Below are positions 17,759 to 26,443 of a stretch of DNA of 35,699 nt, piece by piece (positions within the stretch are counted from its first letter, which is position 1; every line of letters begins with the position of its first letter). Under the pieces are notes generated by a model. That model was given only the letters and a program-made list of their open reading frames with translations, searched no databases and had not been told where the DNA came from. The position numbers were made by a program, and so were the translations under genes. Location: positions 1 through 35,699 of the forward strand of contig CABZJG010000002.1 in NCBI GenBank assembly GCA_902525995.1. The letters run 5' to 3'. The DNA comes from Paracoccaceae bacterium. Lineage in GTDB: Bacteria > Pseudomonadota > Alphaproteobacteria > Rhodobacterales > Rhodobacteraceae.

Positions 17759-18175
17759 TCAAATAACTTTACCGCAACCACAGGGGCATTTTGATTCACG
17801 CGCGATGCGCTCTAATTTACGCACGGCAATAGCATCTGTGTTCTTTTTCGGCGGTGATGCACGTCTGCGCTGCTCAAGATCTGCCAGATATCTTTCCACG
17901 TCTTCTTTTATGAGCTCTGGAGTGACCAGATTTTTAGGTTTTGGCGGGAAAAAATATCCCCACATGACCGAAAACCAGTCCTCGTTATATGCGGCAATTC
18001 TGCGCAAAATCACCACGCCCGTCACCCATAAAACGATGCAGGGGGAAATGACCGTCAGCGCCATGGACGACACAGCAACAGGTAAAAGCATCACGATTGT
18101 GAGCGCACAAAAGGGCATTGGCTCGCAGCCCATAAGCATCGGTCGATCTGTTAGCGCCTTGATCACATACATCAC
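17759..18175 (-). CDS. VirB3/TrbD-like membrane protein, inverted relative to the operon
   Basis: LTDRPMLMGCEPMPFCALTIVMLLPVAVSSMALTVISPCIVLWVTGVVILRRIAAYNEDWFSVMWGYFF resembles the RP-x-x-G...two TM...D-x-F layout of VirB3/TrbD; Cys-rich tail KCPCGCGKVI. Confidence 0.55.
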   Translation of the reverse strand: MMYVIKALTDRPMLMGCEPMPFCALTIVMLLPVAVSSMALTVISPCIVLWVTGVVILRRIAAYNEDWFSVMWGYFFPPKPKNLVTPELIKEDVERYLADLEQRRRASPPKKNTDAIAVRKLERIARESKCPCGCGKVI

Positions 18176-18244
18176 CGTTATCCTTTTTAGTTGCAGCCCA
18201 AAAATAACGCACTGCCGCCTTCAAAACAAGAGGGCAATTGCGCC

Positions 18245-19144
18245 ATGACGGGTCTGCACAGCCAATTAAAAAAGCATAGCGGCGCACTTTTCGAGCTTCT
18301 GTTTGAAAGCGATGTGATCGAAATTCAGCTGGTTGAAACGGGTGATGTTTTTGTGGATCGCTTTGGCCGCGCCCCCTGCGCATCAGGGCGTTTGGATCGT
18401 CAAGAAGCAACCCGATTTTTGCGCTTTTGCGCATCGCACTCAACAACGGAATTCAACCAGGTTCTTTGCCCAATTATCTCAGGGCAGGTGCCGGGCACGC
18501 CGCACCGCATCGAAGGCCTTTTGCCCAAAACGGTCAAAGCTCCTATTTTTTCCATTCGCCGGCACCGCGAAGGCTCTTATGATCTATCGGAGTTTTCAAA
18601 CAGCCGCGAGATTGTGAAAACGATTGAAGCGGCCATACTTCAAAAATCCAATATTGTGATTGTTGGCGGCACCGGAAGCGGAAAAACGTCTTTGTGCAAT
18701 GCAGCGCTTGCGTTTTTAGCGCGCCAAAAACCCCAAACCCGCGTGATCGCAATCGAGGACACTCCGGAGCTTCAGCTTGAATTTGAGCGCGGCTCAAGCC
18801 TTTTGTCTACCGATCATGTGAGTTTGGACCGCTTGCTGGTGTCGTCCTTACGCCTTGCGCCAGATCGTATTGTGGTTGGAGAAATTAGAACGGGTCAGGT
18901 TTTAATGACCGCGCTGAAATCTTGGAACACGGGCCATCCGGGCGGGCTCACCACGCTCCATGCCAATAGCGCCGAGGACGCCTTTGCGCGTATGAAAGCG
19001 CTTGGTCTGGAAGTGGGCGGACTTGATTTAACACCGCTGATCACTGCGGCCGCCCTTGTCATCATTTACGTCGAAAGGGGCTCAGGAGCGCCTCAAATAA
19101 AGGACATTAAAACTTTAAAAGAAGGAGACGAACGACATGACTAA
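18245..19144 (+). CDS. trbB: TrbB/VirB11-family conjugation ATPase
   Basis: NIVIVGGTGSGKTSLCNAALAF; RVIAIEDTPELQ; LAPDRIVVGEIRTGQVLMTALKSWNTGHPGGLTTLHANSAEDA. Confidence 0.9.
   Translation: MTGLHSQLKKHSGALFELLFESDVIEIQLVETGDVFVDRFGRAPCASGRLDRQEATRFLRFCASHSTTEFNQVLCPIISGQVPGTPHRIEGLLPKTVKAPIFSIRRHREGSYDLSEFSNSREIVKTIEAAILQKSNIVIVGGTGSGKTSLCNAALAFLARQKPQTRVIAIEDTPELQLEFERGSSLLSTDHVSLDRLLVSSLRLAPDRIVVGEIRTGQVLMTALKSWNTGHPGGLTTLHANSAEDAFARMKALGLEVGGLDLTPLITAAALVIIYVERGSGAPQIKDIKTLKEGDERHD
19084..19143 (+). repeat. Imperfect direct repeat, copy A (3' end of trbB)
   Basis: aggagcgcctcaaataaaggacattaaaactttaaaagaaggagacgaacgacatgacta; matches copy B with about 6 mismatches and one 3-nt gap. Confidence 0.88.
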
Positions 19145-19577
19145 AGACATGTTCTTTGGGACACTTACAATAGTATATATAGTGGCGTTTGTAGCGTTGG
19201 GCTTAAACGATTTGCTGGCTTATCTGGATAATTCGGAGAAATTTCGCCCAACGTTTTTTAAGGCGGATTTTGGTATCGCGATTGCGTTAGGCCTAGGTTT
19301 TTTGGTGCGCTACATGGGAGCCAAAAAAAATCCATCAGCCCATGAGGATATAAAGACATTTTGGCCAATTTGTCTTGGGTTTTGTATTCTCTTTTTGGTG
19401 TTGAGAGTAACCGCTTATCTCATATCGGTTGATTTATTACCAGACACTTTGAAGATTTGGTTCCTATATTCTGTCTCATTCATTCTCTTGGGCCTGGCAA
19501 TTTTAGGGAGCATTTATGCGTTTGAATTAGCCGAAAGGGCGCAGAAGCGCCTCAAAACAAAGACAGCAAAACTTTAA
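19137..19577 (+). CDS. Hypothetical 4-TM membrane protein bracketed by the direct repeats
   Basis: Four hydrophobic segments; starts inside repeat A and ends inside repeat B. Confidence 0.7.
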   Translation: MTKDMFFGTLTIVYIVAFVALGLNDLLAYLDNSEKFRPTFFKADFGIAIALGLGFLVRYMGAKKNPSAHEDIKTFWPICLGFCILFLVLRVTAYLISVDLLPDTLKIWFLYSVSFILLGLAILGSIYAFELAERAQKRLKTKTAKL

Positions 19578-19599
19578 AAGAAGGAGAACGACATGACTA
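19543..19599 (+). repeat. Imperfect direct repeat, copy B (vestigial duplicate of the trbB 3' end before trbC)
   Basis: agaagcgcctcaaaacaaagacagcaaaactttaaaagaaggagaacgacatgacta; the trbB-equivalent frame still reads EAPQNKDSKTLKEGERHD*. Confidence 0.88.
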
Positions 19600-19931
19600 G
19601 ACAAATATTTTATGTGCTACTTGCGGCAAGCATACTCGCCCTGCCGCAAACGGCATTTGCGTCTATGAGTCAAGCAGATGCACTGCTGGGCGATACAAAC
19701 CCGTTTGAGGTTGTGTTTAAATTCATAACAGGGCCGTTGGCGATTTTCATCGCAGTTGCGGCCGTTGTGGTCTTTGGTGCGCAAATCATCTCCGGCAATG
19801 AAATGGGCGGCGTCATGCGCCGTTTGCCGCAGCTCCTCATCGGTGTGGCCTTTATTCTTGGCGCGGTGCGGCTAATCACGGTTTTGACGGGATCAACGGG
19901 CATGATTTTAACCACAATCGGCCCTTTTTAA
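19593..19931 (+). CDS. trbC: TrbC/VirB2-type conjugative pilin
   Basis: Signal peptide then two TMs: FKFITGPLAIFIAVAAVVVFGAQIISGNEMGGVMRRLPQLLIGVAFILGAVRLI. Confidence 0.88.
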   Translation: MTRQIFYVLLAASILALPQTAFASMSQADALLGDTNPFEVVFKFITGPLAIFIAVAAVVVFGAQIISGNEMGGVMRRLPQLLIGVAFILGAVRLITVLTGSTGMILTTIGPF

Positions 19932-19950
19932 CGTGGTAGGAGGTGCGCCT

Positions 19951-21036
19951 TTGAGACAGCTTTTTCAAACCATAATGGTATGTTTTGTTTTGGGCAAGCC
20001 CGTCTGGGCGCAAGACCTTGGCTCTGATTTGCCGTCAAACCCCAAAGATGTCATCCCAAGCGTTGCTGCCGAACCGAACGCAGGCAGCAGCACACAAGAC
20101 GGTGATCCTATTGAGCCGGCAGAGAGCGCCTCACTTGATAAGATCATCGAACATATCGCACGTGAGGTCACAGAGCAGATAAAATCCGATCTTGCGGCTT
20201 TAAATGCTTTAAATGCTTTAAATAAAGAGGCTGCTATAGAGGCAAAAGACCCCTCCCAAATCGACCTGACGATCAAAGCCGCCCGGCAAGTTTTGGACGA
20301 AACCTCACCTGTTTATCTCGGCAAGGCCGGGCGCATTGTTCAAACTTTTGGCCAGTCCATTCCGCGCCTCGTTTGCCGCGTAGGCCAGCACTGCATTATG
20401 GAGCTCGAGCCGGGAGAAATTGTCGCTGATACACCTGTGTTTTCGGACACAGCGCGGTGGGATGTCTCTTTGCGCATGCGCGATACAGGCCAAGAACAAA
20501 TATATGTATCCGTAAAGCCGCAGGCGGATGCGGCAGAAACAACACTGACGTTGATCACGGACAGGCGCGTCTATTCCGTTTTGCTGGTTCCCGATCTTTA
20601 TGCCCACACAATGATTATGAGCTTTAAGTACCCCGATAGTGAGCGCCGAGCGCTTGAAGCCCAAATTGAGGCGCAAAAAGCGGCTATTTCAGCGCAGGAA
20701 GAGGCCGAAAATACAACTAAGGCGCGCGCGCTGGAAGAAAGGGGCGTGCAGACGGCGCAGGGGCCGGTTCCTGCTGAAGAGCTTGATTTTAAGTACCGTG
20801 TGGTCTCGGGCAAGGCCGCGTTCAAACCCGTGCGCATTTATACCGACGGGATTAAAACCTATATCGAGTTGCCGGGAAAATATCGCGGTGAATATCCTGT
20901 TGTGGTGGTCAGCAACCCCGCAAATCGAAAATCAATCAACCTTGTTTACAAATTCCCTCTCATCATCGTCGACCGTAAGTTGGGAGATTTTCAACTCAAA
21001 ACGCCGGCGCGCAGTTTAAAAATCAAAAAAGGGTAA
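19951..21036 (+). CDS. trbG: TrbG/VirB9-family outer-membrane complex protein
   Basis: ARQVLDETSPVYLGKAGRIVQTFGQSIPRLVCRVGQHCIMELEPGEIV...TRWDVSLR-like block; C-terminal FKYRVVSGKAAFKPVRIYTDGIKTYIELP. TTG at 19951 behind AGGAGGTG preferred over GTG at 19933. Confidence 0.85.
   Translation: MRQLFQTIMVCFVLGKPVWAQDLGSDLPSNPKDVIPSVAAEPNAGSSTQDGDPIEPAESASLDKIIEHIAREVTEQIKSDLAALNALNALNKEAAIEAKDPSQIDLTIKAARQVLDETSPVYLGKAGRIVQTFGQSIPRLVCRVGQHCIMELEPGEIVADTPVFSDTARWDVSLRMRDTGQEQIYVSVKPQADAAETTLTLITDRRVYSVLLVPDLYAHTMIMSFKYPDSERRALEAQIEAQKAAISAQEEAENTTKARALEERGVQTAQGPVPAEELDFKYRVVSGKAAFKPVRIYTDGIKTYIELPGKYRGEYPVVVVSNPANRKSINLVYKFPLIIVDRKLGDFQLKTPARSLKIKKG
20197..20223 (+). repeat. Three perfect copies of a 9-bp tandem repeat (gctttaaat)
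   Basis: In-frame within trbG; encodes ALNALNALN. Confidence 0.9.
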
Positions 21037-21040
21037 GCAG

Positions 21041-21484
21041 ATGCTTGGAAAAATCTCGACTTTGCTATGTGCACTGATGCTTGCTGGATGCGCTGGTTTG
21101 AGTGAATTTTCAGGGTTTGATAATAGCGCTGCGCGTATCACACCCGCGCAAGAATGTGCCGTCGGCTATGATCTTTCCAAACAGATTTTCAAGCACATTA
21201 ATATCAAAGACACTGTCTTGAAGTCGCCCGATAGCAAAACCTCGCACTGCGAATTTTATATGACCAAATACCTGCGCGCCGCAGGCTACCGGATTGACGA
21301 CACACAAGACAGCAAACCTATGAAGGTCGTGATTGCGCGCGACGGGCCATCCATCACCGCTTTTGCAAATATCACCACTGGCCTGCGCATTACGCGCTCT
21401 TATTCACTAACGCCCGCCGGCGTTCTTCCGCTCGGACCGCCTACAATTGCCGCCCTGCCTACCCCGCAAGGGGATCTGCCATGA
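21041..21484 (+). CDS. trbH: TrbH-like lipoprotein
   Basis: Lipobox LMLAGCAG; position between trbG and trbE; LRAAGYRIDDTQ. Confidence 0.7.
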   Translation: MLGKISTLLCALMLAGCAGLSEFSGFDNSAARITPAQECAVGYDLSKQIFKHINIKDTVLKSPDSKTSHCEFYMTKYLRAAGYRIDDTQDSKPMKVVIARDGPSITAFANITTGLRITRSYSLTPAGVLPLGPPTIAALPTPQGDLP

Positions 21485-23859
21485 CAAAATTTAAAAACGT
21501 CGCTGATTATCTCAATTATAGCCATATGGCCGCCCCCGGCGTTGTTGTGGGCAAGGATAAAAGCTTAATGGCGGCCTGGGCGCTGAAAGGTTTTGATTGT
21601 GAAAGCATGTCTGGCGAGGAAATCGATGCGCGTTTGGACAGGCTTGCCGTGGGACTTTCGCGCATGAGCGACGGCGATGGAATTTGGATCTCTCTTGAGC
21701 GGCGTAAAGTAAAGAGGGTTTTATGCGAGCAGAGCGCCAATGCGCAACTTGGGGCGATCCTGCGCGCTGAAAATGCTGCACTCTCAGAGAGGGAAGAGGC
21801 CTATGAGAACCACCTATCGCTGGCGCTGCAATCGCATTTTACATCTCATGAGAAACGCAGCGCGGTGCTTGAAGAGTTTGAAAGCCGCCGGCAAACAATT
21901 GAAAATATTTTCAGCGCAGCCTTTGAAATGCGCCGCCTTGGGGAAATGAACACAGAAGGATCGCTTGTTAGCGACGAGTTTGTGAGTTTGCTGTGTAGTA
22001 TGGCCACAGGACGGCCCATGCCGCATTTTACAAACGCAGAGCGTCCGCTTATCGAGCTCAGCCCACATATAGCGCGCTCTTTTGCCCAAGACAATTTCAC
22101 AGCTTTACCGATCATTGATGGTGTGGGCGTTGCGATTGCAACGCTCTGGGGCTTTCCACGCAGCGAGTTGGATACGCGATTTTTACGCGATTTGGAATCG
22201 CTGCCCTTGGCCTATCGCTGGACATCCCGTTTCATAAAAATGGACAGCCAGGCGACAAAGAAAAAGGTCACGCAAATTGGGCGCCGCTGGAAACAATCAG
22301 GCACCAATATGGCGCATCAGGTGATGACGGGCGAGCAAAGTCCCATGGAAGCCTCCTCTCAAGTTGCGATCAATGAGCTTGAACTTATCAACATGGCCAT
22401 GGTGCGCGAGGGCGCGGTTTTCGGGCGTTTTACATCTGTTTTAACGGCCGCTTATGACAAAGAAGGGCTTGCGGGCGACAGCAATGAGGCTCGTGTAACC
22501 GAAGTGTGGCGCGTCTTTGAACAAGCCGCAATGGAATGTGAGCTTGATATTCGGCTGGAATGCGAAAAAGCGTTTGATGCCTTTTTAGGATCGCTGCCTG
22601 GCCATCTCAATGACAGCTGCCGCCCTCTGATCTTATCTGCAAATGCGGCTTTTGCACTGATGCCGCTGCAAACCACATGGCCAGGCGAAAAAAACGCACC
22701 ATGCCCCCCGCCCTTTTTCCCCAGCGATGCCCCACCCCTTTTAGAAGGAATGAGCATTACCGGTGAGCCGTTTTCCTTCAACATTCATTGGAAAGATGTT
22801 GGCCATACGTTAATTTTAGGCCCAAGTACGGCGGGTAAATCTGTTCTTTTAAGTGCCATTGCAGCGCATTTTCTTCGCTATGACGACGCGCAGGTCTTTT
22901 TCTTCGACAAATTACGCTCCTCTTTCTATACTGCACTGGCGTTTGGCGGACAGGTCTTTGAGTTTGGGGCCGATCATTCAACGGGCGTCGCGCCGCTACA
23001 GCAGGTCGCCGAACTGGGAGAAGAATGGACGACCGCATGGCTGTGCGAAATGTTGCGCCTTCATAATATCCCCGTCACAGCTCAAATAGAAGCAGACATT
23101 GCAGCGTGCCTCAAAGGCGCAGGTCATGACGACTTTGGGTTCGAAGATCTGGTCAGTTATGCGCTCCCTTCGGACGCTAAGGCGGTGTTTGAAAAATTTG
23201 TGGCCCATCCGATGCTGGACAACGCTGCCGCGCAAATTGGACAGAGCCCTTTTACAGTTTTTGAAAGCCATGAGCTGTTCAAGCTTGATGAAAAGCTGGC
23301 AGTTCTATTGCTCGATTACCTGTTTCAGCATGTGGAAAAACAGCTCGAAAGCGGGCGTCCAACCATCATTGTCATTGATGAAGCCCATGCGTTTCTGCGC
23401 CATACCATTTTTGAAGATCGCATACGAACCTGGCTGAAAGAGGGCCGCAAACAAAACGCCTCTTTAATACTGGCGACGCAAGAACTCACCGATGTGGCCG
23501 AGAGCAAGATTGCGCCCACTATTCAAGAGAACATCCGCACGAAAATATATTTGCCAAATGATGCTGCGCGATCCGTGGAAACGGCCGATAAATATCGCCG
23601 TATTGGACTGTCTGAAGCGCAAATCGCCATTATCAAAACGATGACGTCTAAGAAACATTATCTGGTCACGAAACCGGCCGATGGAATGGGGCGCGACACC
23701 AACTCTCACGGGCGCGTTGTCGATTTTGGGTTTTCACAAACGGCGCTGGCGCTCTTTGGCCAAACATCTGCGCAAGACAGCCTAAGGGCAGAGCAAATAC
23801 ATAAGAAAAACCCTCAATTTTGGTTGGATGATTTAACCCAAAAAGGAGCCGCCCCATGA
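21481..23859 (+). CDS. trbE: TrbE/VirB4-family conjugation ATPase
   Basis: HTLILGPSTAGKSVLLSAIAAHFLRY; PTIIVIDEAHAFLRH; LKEGRKQNASLILATQELTDVAESKIAPTIQENIRTKIYLPN. Confidence 0.92.
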   Translation: MTKFKNVADYLNYSHMAAPGVVVGKDKSLMAAWALKGFDCESMSGEEIDARLDRLAVGLSRMSDGDGIWISLERRKVKRVLCEQSANAQLGAILRAENAALSEREEAYENHLSLALQSHFTSHEKRSAVLEEFESRRQTIENIFSAAFEMRRLGEMNTEGSLVSDEFVSLLCSMATGRPMPHFTNAERPLIELSPHIARSFAQDNFTALPIIDGVGVAIATLWGFPRSELDTRFLRDLESLPLAYRWTSRFIKMDSQATKKKVTQIGRRWKQSGTNMAHQVMTGEQSPMEASSQVAINELELINMAMVREGAVFGRFTSVLTAAYDKEGLAGDSNEARVTEVWRVFEQAAMECELDIRLECEKAFDAFLGSLPGHLNDSCRPLILSANAAFALMPLQTTWPGEKNAPCPPPFFPSDAPPLLEGMSITGEPFSFNIHWKDVGHTLILGPSTAGKSVLLSAIAAHFLRYDDAQVFFFDKLRSSFYTALAFGGQVFEFGADHSTGVAPLQQVAELGEEWTTAWLCEMLRLHNIPVTAQIEADIAACLKGAGHDDFGFEDLVSYALPSDAKAVFEKFVAHPMLDNAAAQIGQSPFTVFESHELFKLDEKLAVLLLDYLFQHVEKQLESGRPTIIVIDEAHAFLRHTIFEDRIRTWLKEGRKQNASLILATQELTDVAESKIAPTIQENIRTKIYLPNDAARSVETADKYRRIGLSEAQIAIIKTMTSKKHYLVTKPADGMGRDTNSHGRVVDFGFSQTALALFGQTSAQDSLRAEQIHKKNPQFWLDDLTQKGAAP

Positions 23860-24674
23860 AACGAATGCAACACTTAATCTGTGCGTTTTATCTGACGACC
23901 GGGCTTTCAAGCCCGTCCCACGCGGGGCCCGCAACGGGTGCGGCCACAGAATGGACGCAGCTTGCAAACCTTGGGGAATTGGGCGCCCTGGTCTCAACAG
24001 AAACGCAATCGCTTAACACCTTGGCCGAAATGCTTGGCGCGGAATTCGAGCAAATCAGAACATTGAATGAAACCTATCAAACAATGCTGCAAAACACGGC
24101 CCGCGTTGACGAAAGTTTCAAGCGAGATGCGGCCCGTTCTATTTTGGATATGGCCGCAGTGCTACGGCAATCCAGCGCGCTTGTGGCAAAGGGTAAAAAT
24201 CTGGATCAATTTCTGCGCTCGGGAAACATCACTGATCCTCTTTACGATGATGCGCCGCTGGAGCGTGCCCAAATCAGTGAACGATATGACAGATGGGCAG
24301 GCCAATGGAATAGCTCTCTTAGCTCTTCTTTGAGCAAAGCAGGTCTGACGATCAAAGATGTCGAGCAGGAGGCCGATTTGCTTTCGGCCATTCAAAGCAG
24401 GGTAGGCAATGAGGACGGGCAGCTGAAGGCCTTGCAGATTTCCAATGAGCTCAGCAGCTCGCTCGCCACCCAGATGATGGATCTCAGAAGCCTCACAGCA
24501 TTGCAGGTCGAGCAGAACGGCGTGGCATGGGGCCGTGTTTTGTCCGAGCAGGACGAAGCCGAGGCCAAAGCCCGCGCTTTTGAAATTCAAAGGAATCAAG
24601 AGCTCAAACGTCTGGAGCAAGAGATGAAGAATGCGCGCGGCATCAACGAAATCTTGGGCATTGGAGGAAAGTGA
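23856..24674 (+). CDS. trbJ: TrbJ/VirB5-family protein
   Basis: Signal peptide; ATEWTQLANLGELGALVSTETQSLNTLAEMLGAEFEQIRTLNETYQTML coiled-coil layout; follows trbE. Confidence 0.82.
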   Translation: MKRMQHLICAFYLTTGLSSPSHAGPATGAATEWTQLANLGELGALVSTETQSLNTLAEMLGAEFEQIRTLNETYQTMLQNTARVDESFKRDAARSILDMAAVLRQSSALVAKGKNLDQFLRSGNITDPLYDDAPLERAQISERYDRWAGQWNSSLSSSLSKAGLTIKDVEQEADLLSAIQSRVGNEDGQLKALQISNELSSSLATQMMDLRSLTALQVEQNGVAWGRVLSEQDEAEAKARAFEIQRNQELKRLEQEMKNARGINEILGIGGK

Positions 24675-25771
24675 TGCGGGTTTTTTGGTTTGTTGTTTTA
24701 GTAATCCTCATGGCTAATCCCACCGCTGCCCAAGAGGTTGCGCCGGCCTCTGGAGGCGATGAGATTGTCGAAAACTTAAAGCAGGCCATAGATGGTATGG
24801 GCGGGCGCATAGCGCCTTACGCCATTTGGTTCCTAACCAGCCTGTTTGTTATCGATATTATCATTACGTTCGGCCGCGCCACGCTTCAAGGCACGGGTTT
24901 GGGGGAGACCTTGAACCGGTTTATTATACGTTTGCTGATTATTACGCTGGCTATATTTTTCATCAACAGTGTCTCGCAATTTGTCGAGATGTTCATCAAT
25001 GCCGCCATACGGCTCGGCTCCGAAGCCTCCGATCAAAAGGAAATATCAGATATAGCCGTATCGACAATTGTGAACGAAGCGTTGGCTTTTGCCCGTGACG
25101 TCATGGGCCTTATGGACTGGAAGCAGATCGGTACAGCTATCATCTTGGGAATTGTTATAATCATCGGCTTAATTATTGGGGCCGTGATCGCTGCGCTCGT
25201 TATTCTGGCCTATGCGGAGATGTATTTTGTCGCCTTCATGGGCGTTTTTGTTCTGGGCTTTGCGGGCCTGTCCAGCACAACGGGCGCTGCGATCACCTAC
25301 GTTAAAACTCTGATCGGGCAGGCTTTGAAACTGATGGCGCTGCTTGTGACCTATGCGTTCATGAGCCAATTGACGACCGGGCTTGCCGGGCCGGACGGGG
25401 TAACTTTTGATCAGGCTCTTTCAATGCTGATGGTGCAGGTCATTACGCTGGTGCTTGTGGCCACACTTCCCGGATCACTGCAACAGCTGGCCGGCGGGCT
25501 TGGTTCATCAGGATCCTTTGAAATGACCGCCCGCATGGGCGCCAAAACCGGGCTGACAGCGAGCGCGGCAGCAGCTGGTGCAGCAGGCGCAGCATCATTA
25601 GGTGGAATAGGGGGGGGTCTGCTGGGCGGTGGGAAGGGCCTATTGGATGCCCTTCAGGCTGGCGGCGGTGCCGATCAGGCTCTCAAAGGTCTTGGCAAAG
25701 GTCTTGGCAAAGGCGTAGCGCCCGGTGTGAGAACCGGTCTTAAATACCTCAATAAAGCAAGAGGCAAGTAA
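24671..25771 (+). CDS. trbL: TrbL/VirB6-family polytopic membrane protein
   Basis: Signal peptide, multiple TM segments, Gly/Ala-rich C-terminus; follows trbJ. Confidence 0.85.
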   Translation: MMRVFWFVVLVILMANPTAAQEVAPASGGDEIVENLKQAIDGMGGRIAPYAIWFLTSLFVIDIIITFGRATLQGTGLGETLNRFIIRLLIITLAIFFINSVSQFVEMFINAAIRLGSEASDQKEISDIAVSTIVNEALAFARDVMGLMDWKQIGTAIILGIVIIIGLIIGAVIAALVILAYAEMYFVAFMGVFVLGFAGLSSTTGAAITYVKTLIGQALKLMALLVTYAFMSQLTTGLAGPDGVTFDQALSMLMVQVITLVLVATLPGSLQQLAGGLGSSGSFEMTARMGAKTGLTASAAAAGAAGAASLGGIGGGLLGGGKGLLDALQAGGGADQALKGLGKGLGKGVAPGVRTGLKYLNKARGK

Positions 25772-25786
25772 CGGGATGGATCTCTT

Positions 25787-26443
25787 GTGAGCAATCAGGA
25801 TTTCAATAGTTTTATAGACGGTTTGGAAAAAGACCGGCGATCCTTTGTCATCAGCTGGTGGATATTCATCGTTTCGGCTGTGATATTTTCCATCACAACG
25901 CTTTGGCTGGCGTTGGATGTGACCTGGCAAAAGGCCGACAATCACGTTCTCGCATTAGACCCGGCAGGGCGCGTGGTTCTGGCGCCCAAAGCAGACAGGC
26001 TGAGCGACTGGCCAGATCAGGCGTTTGAGCGCTTTGTCATTAATTATATCGAGCTGATGCGCCGGATTGATGCTGATCACGATATTTTGCTCTCTGACAT
26101 TAGCCGCCTGAGTGCTTTGACGCCAAGTGGATCTCCCGCCCGTCAAAAACTGCGCGAGCAAGGCGCAGGCGGTGCAAGATCCCAACTGCACGGCACATCC
26201 ACCCGCAGCGTGAAAATCGAGCGCGTTGAAAAGCAAAGCGAAACGGTCTGGCTTGTGGTCTGGAATGAACAAACAAAAGATTATGGCAGCGGCAGAGTGT
26301 CGGAGGCGCATCGCTATCAGGCCAGCCTTCTGCTCCGCACCGGCCCTATTGGGAGCGCAAGCGCTTTGCAGCTCAACCCGATGGGTGTTTTTGTTCATGA
26401 TTTCGATATTCAAAGATTAATAGAGGCGAGCGGCAGTGGATAA
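25787..26443 (+). CDS. VirB8/TrbF-like protein, copy 1 (GTG start)
   Basis: One N-terminal TM (VISWWIFIVSAVIFSITTLWLALDV) then a ~170 aa periplasmic domain; ends NPMGVFVHDFDIQRL like copy 2 (NPLGLVVRDWTQTYL). Confidence 0.7.
   Translation: MSNQDFNSFIDGLEKDRRSFVISWWIFIVSAVIFSITTLWLALDVTWQKADNHVLALDPAGRVVLAPKADRLSDWPDQAFERFVINYIELMRRIDADHDILLSDISRLSALTPSGSPARQKLREQGAGGARSQLHGTSTRSVKIERVEKQSETVWLVVWNEQTKDYGSGRVSEAHRYQASLLLRTGPIGSASALQLNPMGVFVHDFDIQRLIEASGSG

Follow-up and report, generated by a model that had tools for sequence, protein, structure and literature searches.

Genes that are absent from a related genome and flanked by long direct copies of their target have been described as cases of 'insertion with long target duplication' (Nobusato et al. 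2000, as cited in PMC1643837; see also PMC3154945). The cases described in these papers often involve restriction-modification genes and lie on Helicobacter pylori chromosomes. For Arabidopsis, a model has been put forward in which genes with flanking direct repeats are moved by excision as a circle followed by reintegration (PMC2869330). Here we describe a short gene of a bacterial conjugation operon, referred to as X, that lies between direct copies of the junction of its two neighbours and is likely to have entered that junction from elsewhere, becoming a new gene of the operon as the target was duplicated.

The window, meaning the whole stretch of DNA analysed, is an entire contig (G000:C2, 35,699 bp) of a MAG that is 61% complete, and the named relatives of this contig are Rhodobacteraceae. 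It carries a RepC replication gene (Pfam RP-C domains), pil-type genes, which we take to be IncI-like and name PilN, PilQ, PilR and PilV-like, and a T4SS operon in which Pfam matches and synteny give the order trbB, X, trbC, virB9, a small putative lipoprotein gene, virB4, a virB5-like gene, virB6, two virB8 genes and virB10. The last 2.6 kb of the contig (33100–35699) are without a convincing ORF, the rest being densely coding. The features of the region are as follows.

17759–18175, minus strand: VirB3/TrbD-like gene, divergent and upstream of trbB (tblastn and blastp matches to the gene upstream of trbB in loci L091–L095 and to the TrbD-like ORF of L098)
18239–19144, plus strand: trbB, VirB11-type transfer ATPase, intact (Pfam T2SSE, 5e-33; NCBIfam TrbB_P, 2e-66, under that model's cut-off)
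19066–19166, plus strand: repeat copy A, holding the trbB 3' end, the RBS, the trbB stop with the ORF start that overlaps it, and a stretch of about 10 codons similar to the 5' end of trbC (79/96 identity with copy B; codons 3–10 match trbC at 15/24)
19137–19577, plus strand: presumed inserted ORF X, 146 residues, predicted four-TM inner-membrane protein (ORF; GC 40.4%; hydropathy; weak four-helix model with a pLDDT of 66)
19167–19531, plus strand: putative foreign core, through which the frame of X stays open, lacking a stop and any apparent start (open in 6 of 5,000 shuffles; no homologue)
19527–19622, plus strand: repeat copy B, holding the trbB-tail copy (last 14 codons of X), the RBS and the trbC start (79/96 identical to copy A; reading frames)
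19593–19931, plus strand: trbC, VirB2-type pilin (Pfam TrbC, 6.7e-11; alignment with a seven-member family)
19933–28977, plus strand: remainder of the T4SS operon, comprising VirB9/CagX, the small putative lipoprotein, VirB4, VirB5-like, VirB6/TrbL, two VirB8 and VirB10/TrbI (Pfam; synteny with relatives)
24671–25771, within the preceding entry: virB6 gene (Pfam)

Two peculiarities are found further down the operon. Adjacent VirB8-like genes (25787–26443 and 26436–27107), about 25% identical to each other, occupy the place where the relatives examined have a single VirB8. The ORF at 27100–28977 joins VirB10/TrbI to a C-terminal HNH nuclease domain of the GmrSD_C/DUF1524 type (residues ~491–599); the HNH part has no match in any fetched locus, and with the fusion as query none of 72,556 plasmids reaches a coverage of 80%. 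A nuclease at the outer end of the T4SS scaffold would be unusual.

A reading of this DNA made from its sequence alone had reported a direct repeat of 19084–19143 and 19543–19599. Global alignment of these two segments reproduces that report, with 51 of 57 positions identical, 6 mismatched and a single gap of 3 nt, and the repeat proves longer than was described, extending over 19066–19166 and 19527–19622 with 79 identities (about 82%) in 96 aligned positions and 5 gap columns. Its exact ends are blurred because of divergence, the longest exact stretch common to both copies being ~20 nt. The local alignment score across the region is 88, compared with at most 33 in 500 dinucleotide shuffles; the second-best score among all tested gene-junction pairs in the window is 31. 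This is the sole direct-repeat pair of at least 30 nt in the 35.7-kb window, in which it is listed as two overlapping families, and inverted-repeat pairs of at least 30 nt are absent from the window.

The final ~25 codons of trbB fall in copy A, in agreement with the reported duplication of the trbB 3' end. The earlier account had missed that the 5' codons of trbC are duplicated as well, the repeat reaching into the first ~10 codons of that gene. After the common ATGACT, codons 3–10 of X are identical to trbC at 15 of 24 bases, a level reached among 4,739 in-frame windows of neighbouring genes by the trbC window itself and by no other.

As the sequence-only reading had stated, X starts in copy A (ATG at 19137) and ends in copy B (TAA at 19575–19577), and the trbB frame of copy B remains open to a TAG at 19598–19600. 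Overlooked had been that both ends of the ORF are built from the repeats and that copy B is entered in the trbB frame. X runs into copy B at 19533 with GAA AGG, as copy A reads at 19073; the copies then differ by one base (GGGG in A, GGG in B), so that X leaves the trbB frame, its last codons being an out-of-frame copy of the trbB tail that continues to the TAA at 19575. Without this difference the frame of X would reach the TAG at 19598–19600, overlapping the trbC start. At the other end, the product begins MTKDMFFGTL, compared with MTRQIFYVLL for TrbC. The TrbC proteins of several relatives begin opposite position 5 of this alignment, and the codon there is ATG in X and ATA in trbC. X is thus probably a chimera, with a start and first residues derived from trbC, a foreign core (19167–19531) and a copy of the trbB tail as its last 14 codons.

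The composition of X sets it apart from its surroundings. The insert is AT-richer than its neighbours, as had been noted, with a GC content of 40.4% compared with 52.0% for trbB and 51.0% for trbC; the region around it stands at ~51–53%, and the sharp fall is confined to the ORF. Its GC3 is 43.5% and its codon usage just mildly atypical. Since the frame of the core is open in just 6 of 5,000 dinucleotide shuffles, the core is unlikely to be random DNA. The insert consists of a single 146-residue ORF in which Pfam and NCBIfam gave no transposase or integrase domain, and no terminal inverted repeat of at least 30 nt flanks it.

Relatives of the operon were sought by aligning the TrbB proteins of the window and of genome G032 (46% identical) and scanning the alignment against 84,980 species genomes. 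The sequence-only reading had proposed looking for related plasmids without the insert, and the empty site is found in all eight same-clade T4SS loci with a readable junction (L091–L098, TrbB 43–49% identical to that of the window): trbB directly overlaps trbC, whose start lies within or at the very end of trbB, and the junction is single. At this distance the single-copy status of the target follows from gene structure rather than from nucleotide identity with the repeat, and the loci represent fewer than eight independent lineages because some share one MAG and L091, L092 and L097 are nearly identical. Locus L100, a broken trbB fragment, was left out of the junction count. In the more distant trb loci examined, trbC begins −3 to +18 nt from the trbB stop wherever it is readable, the ORF search not listing trbC in a few of them.

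X is missing from every fetched locus and from all of 194 other genomes, most of which belong to the same family, and has no record in the plasmid, phage or viral (IMG/VR) collections searched. Close relatives of the window plasmid are likewise missing from the collections, where the nearest TrbB is 49% identical; a DNA search returned only short trbB/virB11 matches in plasmids, and relatives came neither from viral contigs scanned with X, TrbB and VirB4 as single proteins nor from a genome-contig scan with TrbC. Owing to the empty sites and the absence of X elsewhere, the gene is best placed as a gain on the lineage of the window, and the polarity supported by the empty sites is insertion with duplication of the junction. 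The earlier proposal of an insertion that split the trbB–trbC junction with duplication of a segment is thus upheld by the relatives.

The operons of these relatives have accessory genes of their own. A DUF2726-type gene with an N-terminal hydrophobic segment lies between virB9 and the lipoprotein gene (L092:11520–12068, L094:11448–11996, L093:12730–13290, and G032) and is not in the window, and in G032, the closest named relative, contig G032:C68 (in L088) has a 550-residue ORF, DNA methyltransferase-like by sequence motifs, inside the T4SS operon between virB8 and virB10; neither kind of gene has flanking repeats. One Rhodobacteraceae MAG (CATOSB01) holds six loci of this T4SS type (L091, L092, L093, L095, L097 and L100), of which some are nearly identical and others are rearranged or broken by transposase-like genes.

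In the scenario that we favour, the ancestral plasmid would have had trbB overlapping trbC, as in all relatives. A foreign piece of ~365 bp (40% GC), comprising an open stretch of a membrane-protein gene, would have entered this junction, with ~100 bp of junction (trbB tail, RBS, start overlap and ~10 trbC codons) left on both sides, so that both repeat copies would have been born in the insertion event itself. trbB would have stayed whole and trbC would have kept its own RBS and start, and the foreign piece would have found an RBS and start already in place, supplied by trbC, with the trbB tail providing its end. The most likely route is template switching or illegitimate recombination while DNA was being repaired or the plasmid replicated, or else the integration of a small circle with the same junction from a related plasmid. 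It is conceivable, and in our estimation quite unlikely, that the trbB–trbC junction serves as a portable expression cassette, a junction-flanked gene leaving as a small circle and entering plasmids of the family by homologous recombination at the single junction; operon-embedded accessory genes would then move between conjugative plasmids without an integrase, each of them a chimera with a borrowed start and end.

The same anatomy could be sought in a tandem duplication of the trbB tail and trbC, the first trbC copy having diverged into X as a neofunctionalised pilin paralogue. The repeat does take in the trbC start, the first ten residues of the two products are alike, their first TM segments lie in the same place, and the body of X aligned with trbC and the start of virB9 gives a local DNA score of 16, where shuffles have a 95th percentile of 15 and a maximum of 17. 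The likeness ends at about codon 10, however, though the flanks are more than 80% identical. X, with its four TM segments, shows no evident cleavable leader and no conserved TrbC core motif, and its GC content is 10 points below that of trbC. As BLASTP of X with TrbC finds nothing, and an hhalign comparison of the TrbC family profile with X (probability 0.1% over four columns) is negative beyond the leader, a paralogue of TrbC is not supported and we consider it an unlikely source.

The polarity could also be the reverse, with X ancestral at the junction and deleted from the remaining lineages when the repeats recombined; a direct repeat could in principle remove the gene cleanly and restore a single trbB–trbC junction. 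Such a history would demand that each of the eight clade loci had lost the gene, and likewise the more distant trb loci, none of which has a trace of X, and the low GC content of the gene argues for a recent arrival, making this reading very unlikely. A misjoining of two plasmid variants at a common junction sequence, to which the fragmented and incomplete state of the MAG might lend itself, is harder still to credit: besides the gaps, 17 of the 96 aligned positions distinguish the copies, exact sharing does not exceed ~20 nt, each of trbB, X and trbC is an intact ORF, and a second trbB of this kind is absent from the MAG. Entry of a foreign gene with duplication of its target junction is accordingly the explanation that we retain.

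The X product has TM segments at residues ~5–23, 39–57, 78–96 and 105–123, a cationic loop (58–77) and a cationic C-terminal tail, as judged from hydropathy and sequence, and the charges of its loops fit a predicted four-TM topology with both termini inside. No meaningful match was obtained in Pfam, NCBIfam, PHROGs, PADLOC or the PDB sequences, and the core has no detectable homologue. EPS_sugtrans (E 0.005, well short of its cut-off) and Acyl_transf_3 gave weak matches, which seem to reflect TM composition and were set aside. The AlphaFold model, made from the single sequence, has a pLDDT of 66, and Foldseek found no match to it below E 2. An assignment as VirB3/TrbD was rejected, as the VirB3-like gene upstream of trbB (17759–18175, minus strand) means that X does not fill a missing VirB3 slot.

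X is presumably translated and, from the layout of the genes, probably translationally coupled: its start overlaps the trbB stop and it is read from the T4SS operon, so that it should be made together with the apparatus. It is most likely to be an inner-membrane accessory protein of the transfer machinery. Among the small inner-membrane proteins of transfer systems, those for exclusion are the best known, and an entry-exclusion-like or T4SS-modulating role is the leading, if weak and rather doubtful, guess. It is a guess because known exclusion genes are usually neighbours of their target or of a VirB6 homologue (PMC11493245) and X sits between trbB and trbC.

Essential operons with overlapping genes have little space for insertions. 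The present case shows in its anatomy how a foreign ORF can join such an operon with neither neighbour broken: the target duplication gives the newcomer its RBS, start codon and end, and rebuilds the upstream signals of the next gene. X is a clean, short instance of the known but poorly explained entry of genes into operons, and how genes join operons becomes testable at one short, well-bounded site.

The setting of X resembles trb/P-type T4SS with IncI-like pil genes, in that the window, G032 and L098 all carry pil-like genes linked to the VirB/Trb set; the VirB/Trb and pil gene order is largely shared between the window and G032, and X differs in being found in the window only. Like the entry-exclusion proteins TraS of F and Eex of SXT/R391, X is small, hydrophobic, predicted to lie in the inner membrane and encoded with a transfer system; unlike them, it has no sequence similarity to a known exclusion family (Pfam, NCBIfam), and its gene adjoins neither the VirB6 gene nor another known exclusion target (PMC11493245). 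The circle model from Arabidopsis shares with this locus flanking repeats whose counterpart occurs just once where the orthologous site is empty, and homology-driven reintegration would give the same anatomy, although that model was proposed for plant genes. The closest likeness is to insertion with long target duplication: the gene is absent from related genomes, where the target is single at the empty site, and is flanked by direct target copies of ~96 nt, far longer than a transposon footprint, with neither transposase, integrase nor terminal inverted repeat in the insert. In contrast to the described cases, X is a membrane-protein gene in a conjugation operon, and, as a useful further detail, the newcomer's ORF takes its two ends from the duplicated target.
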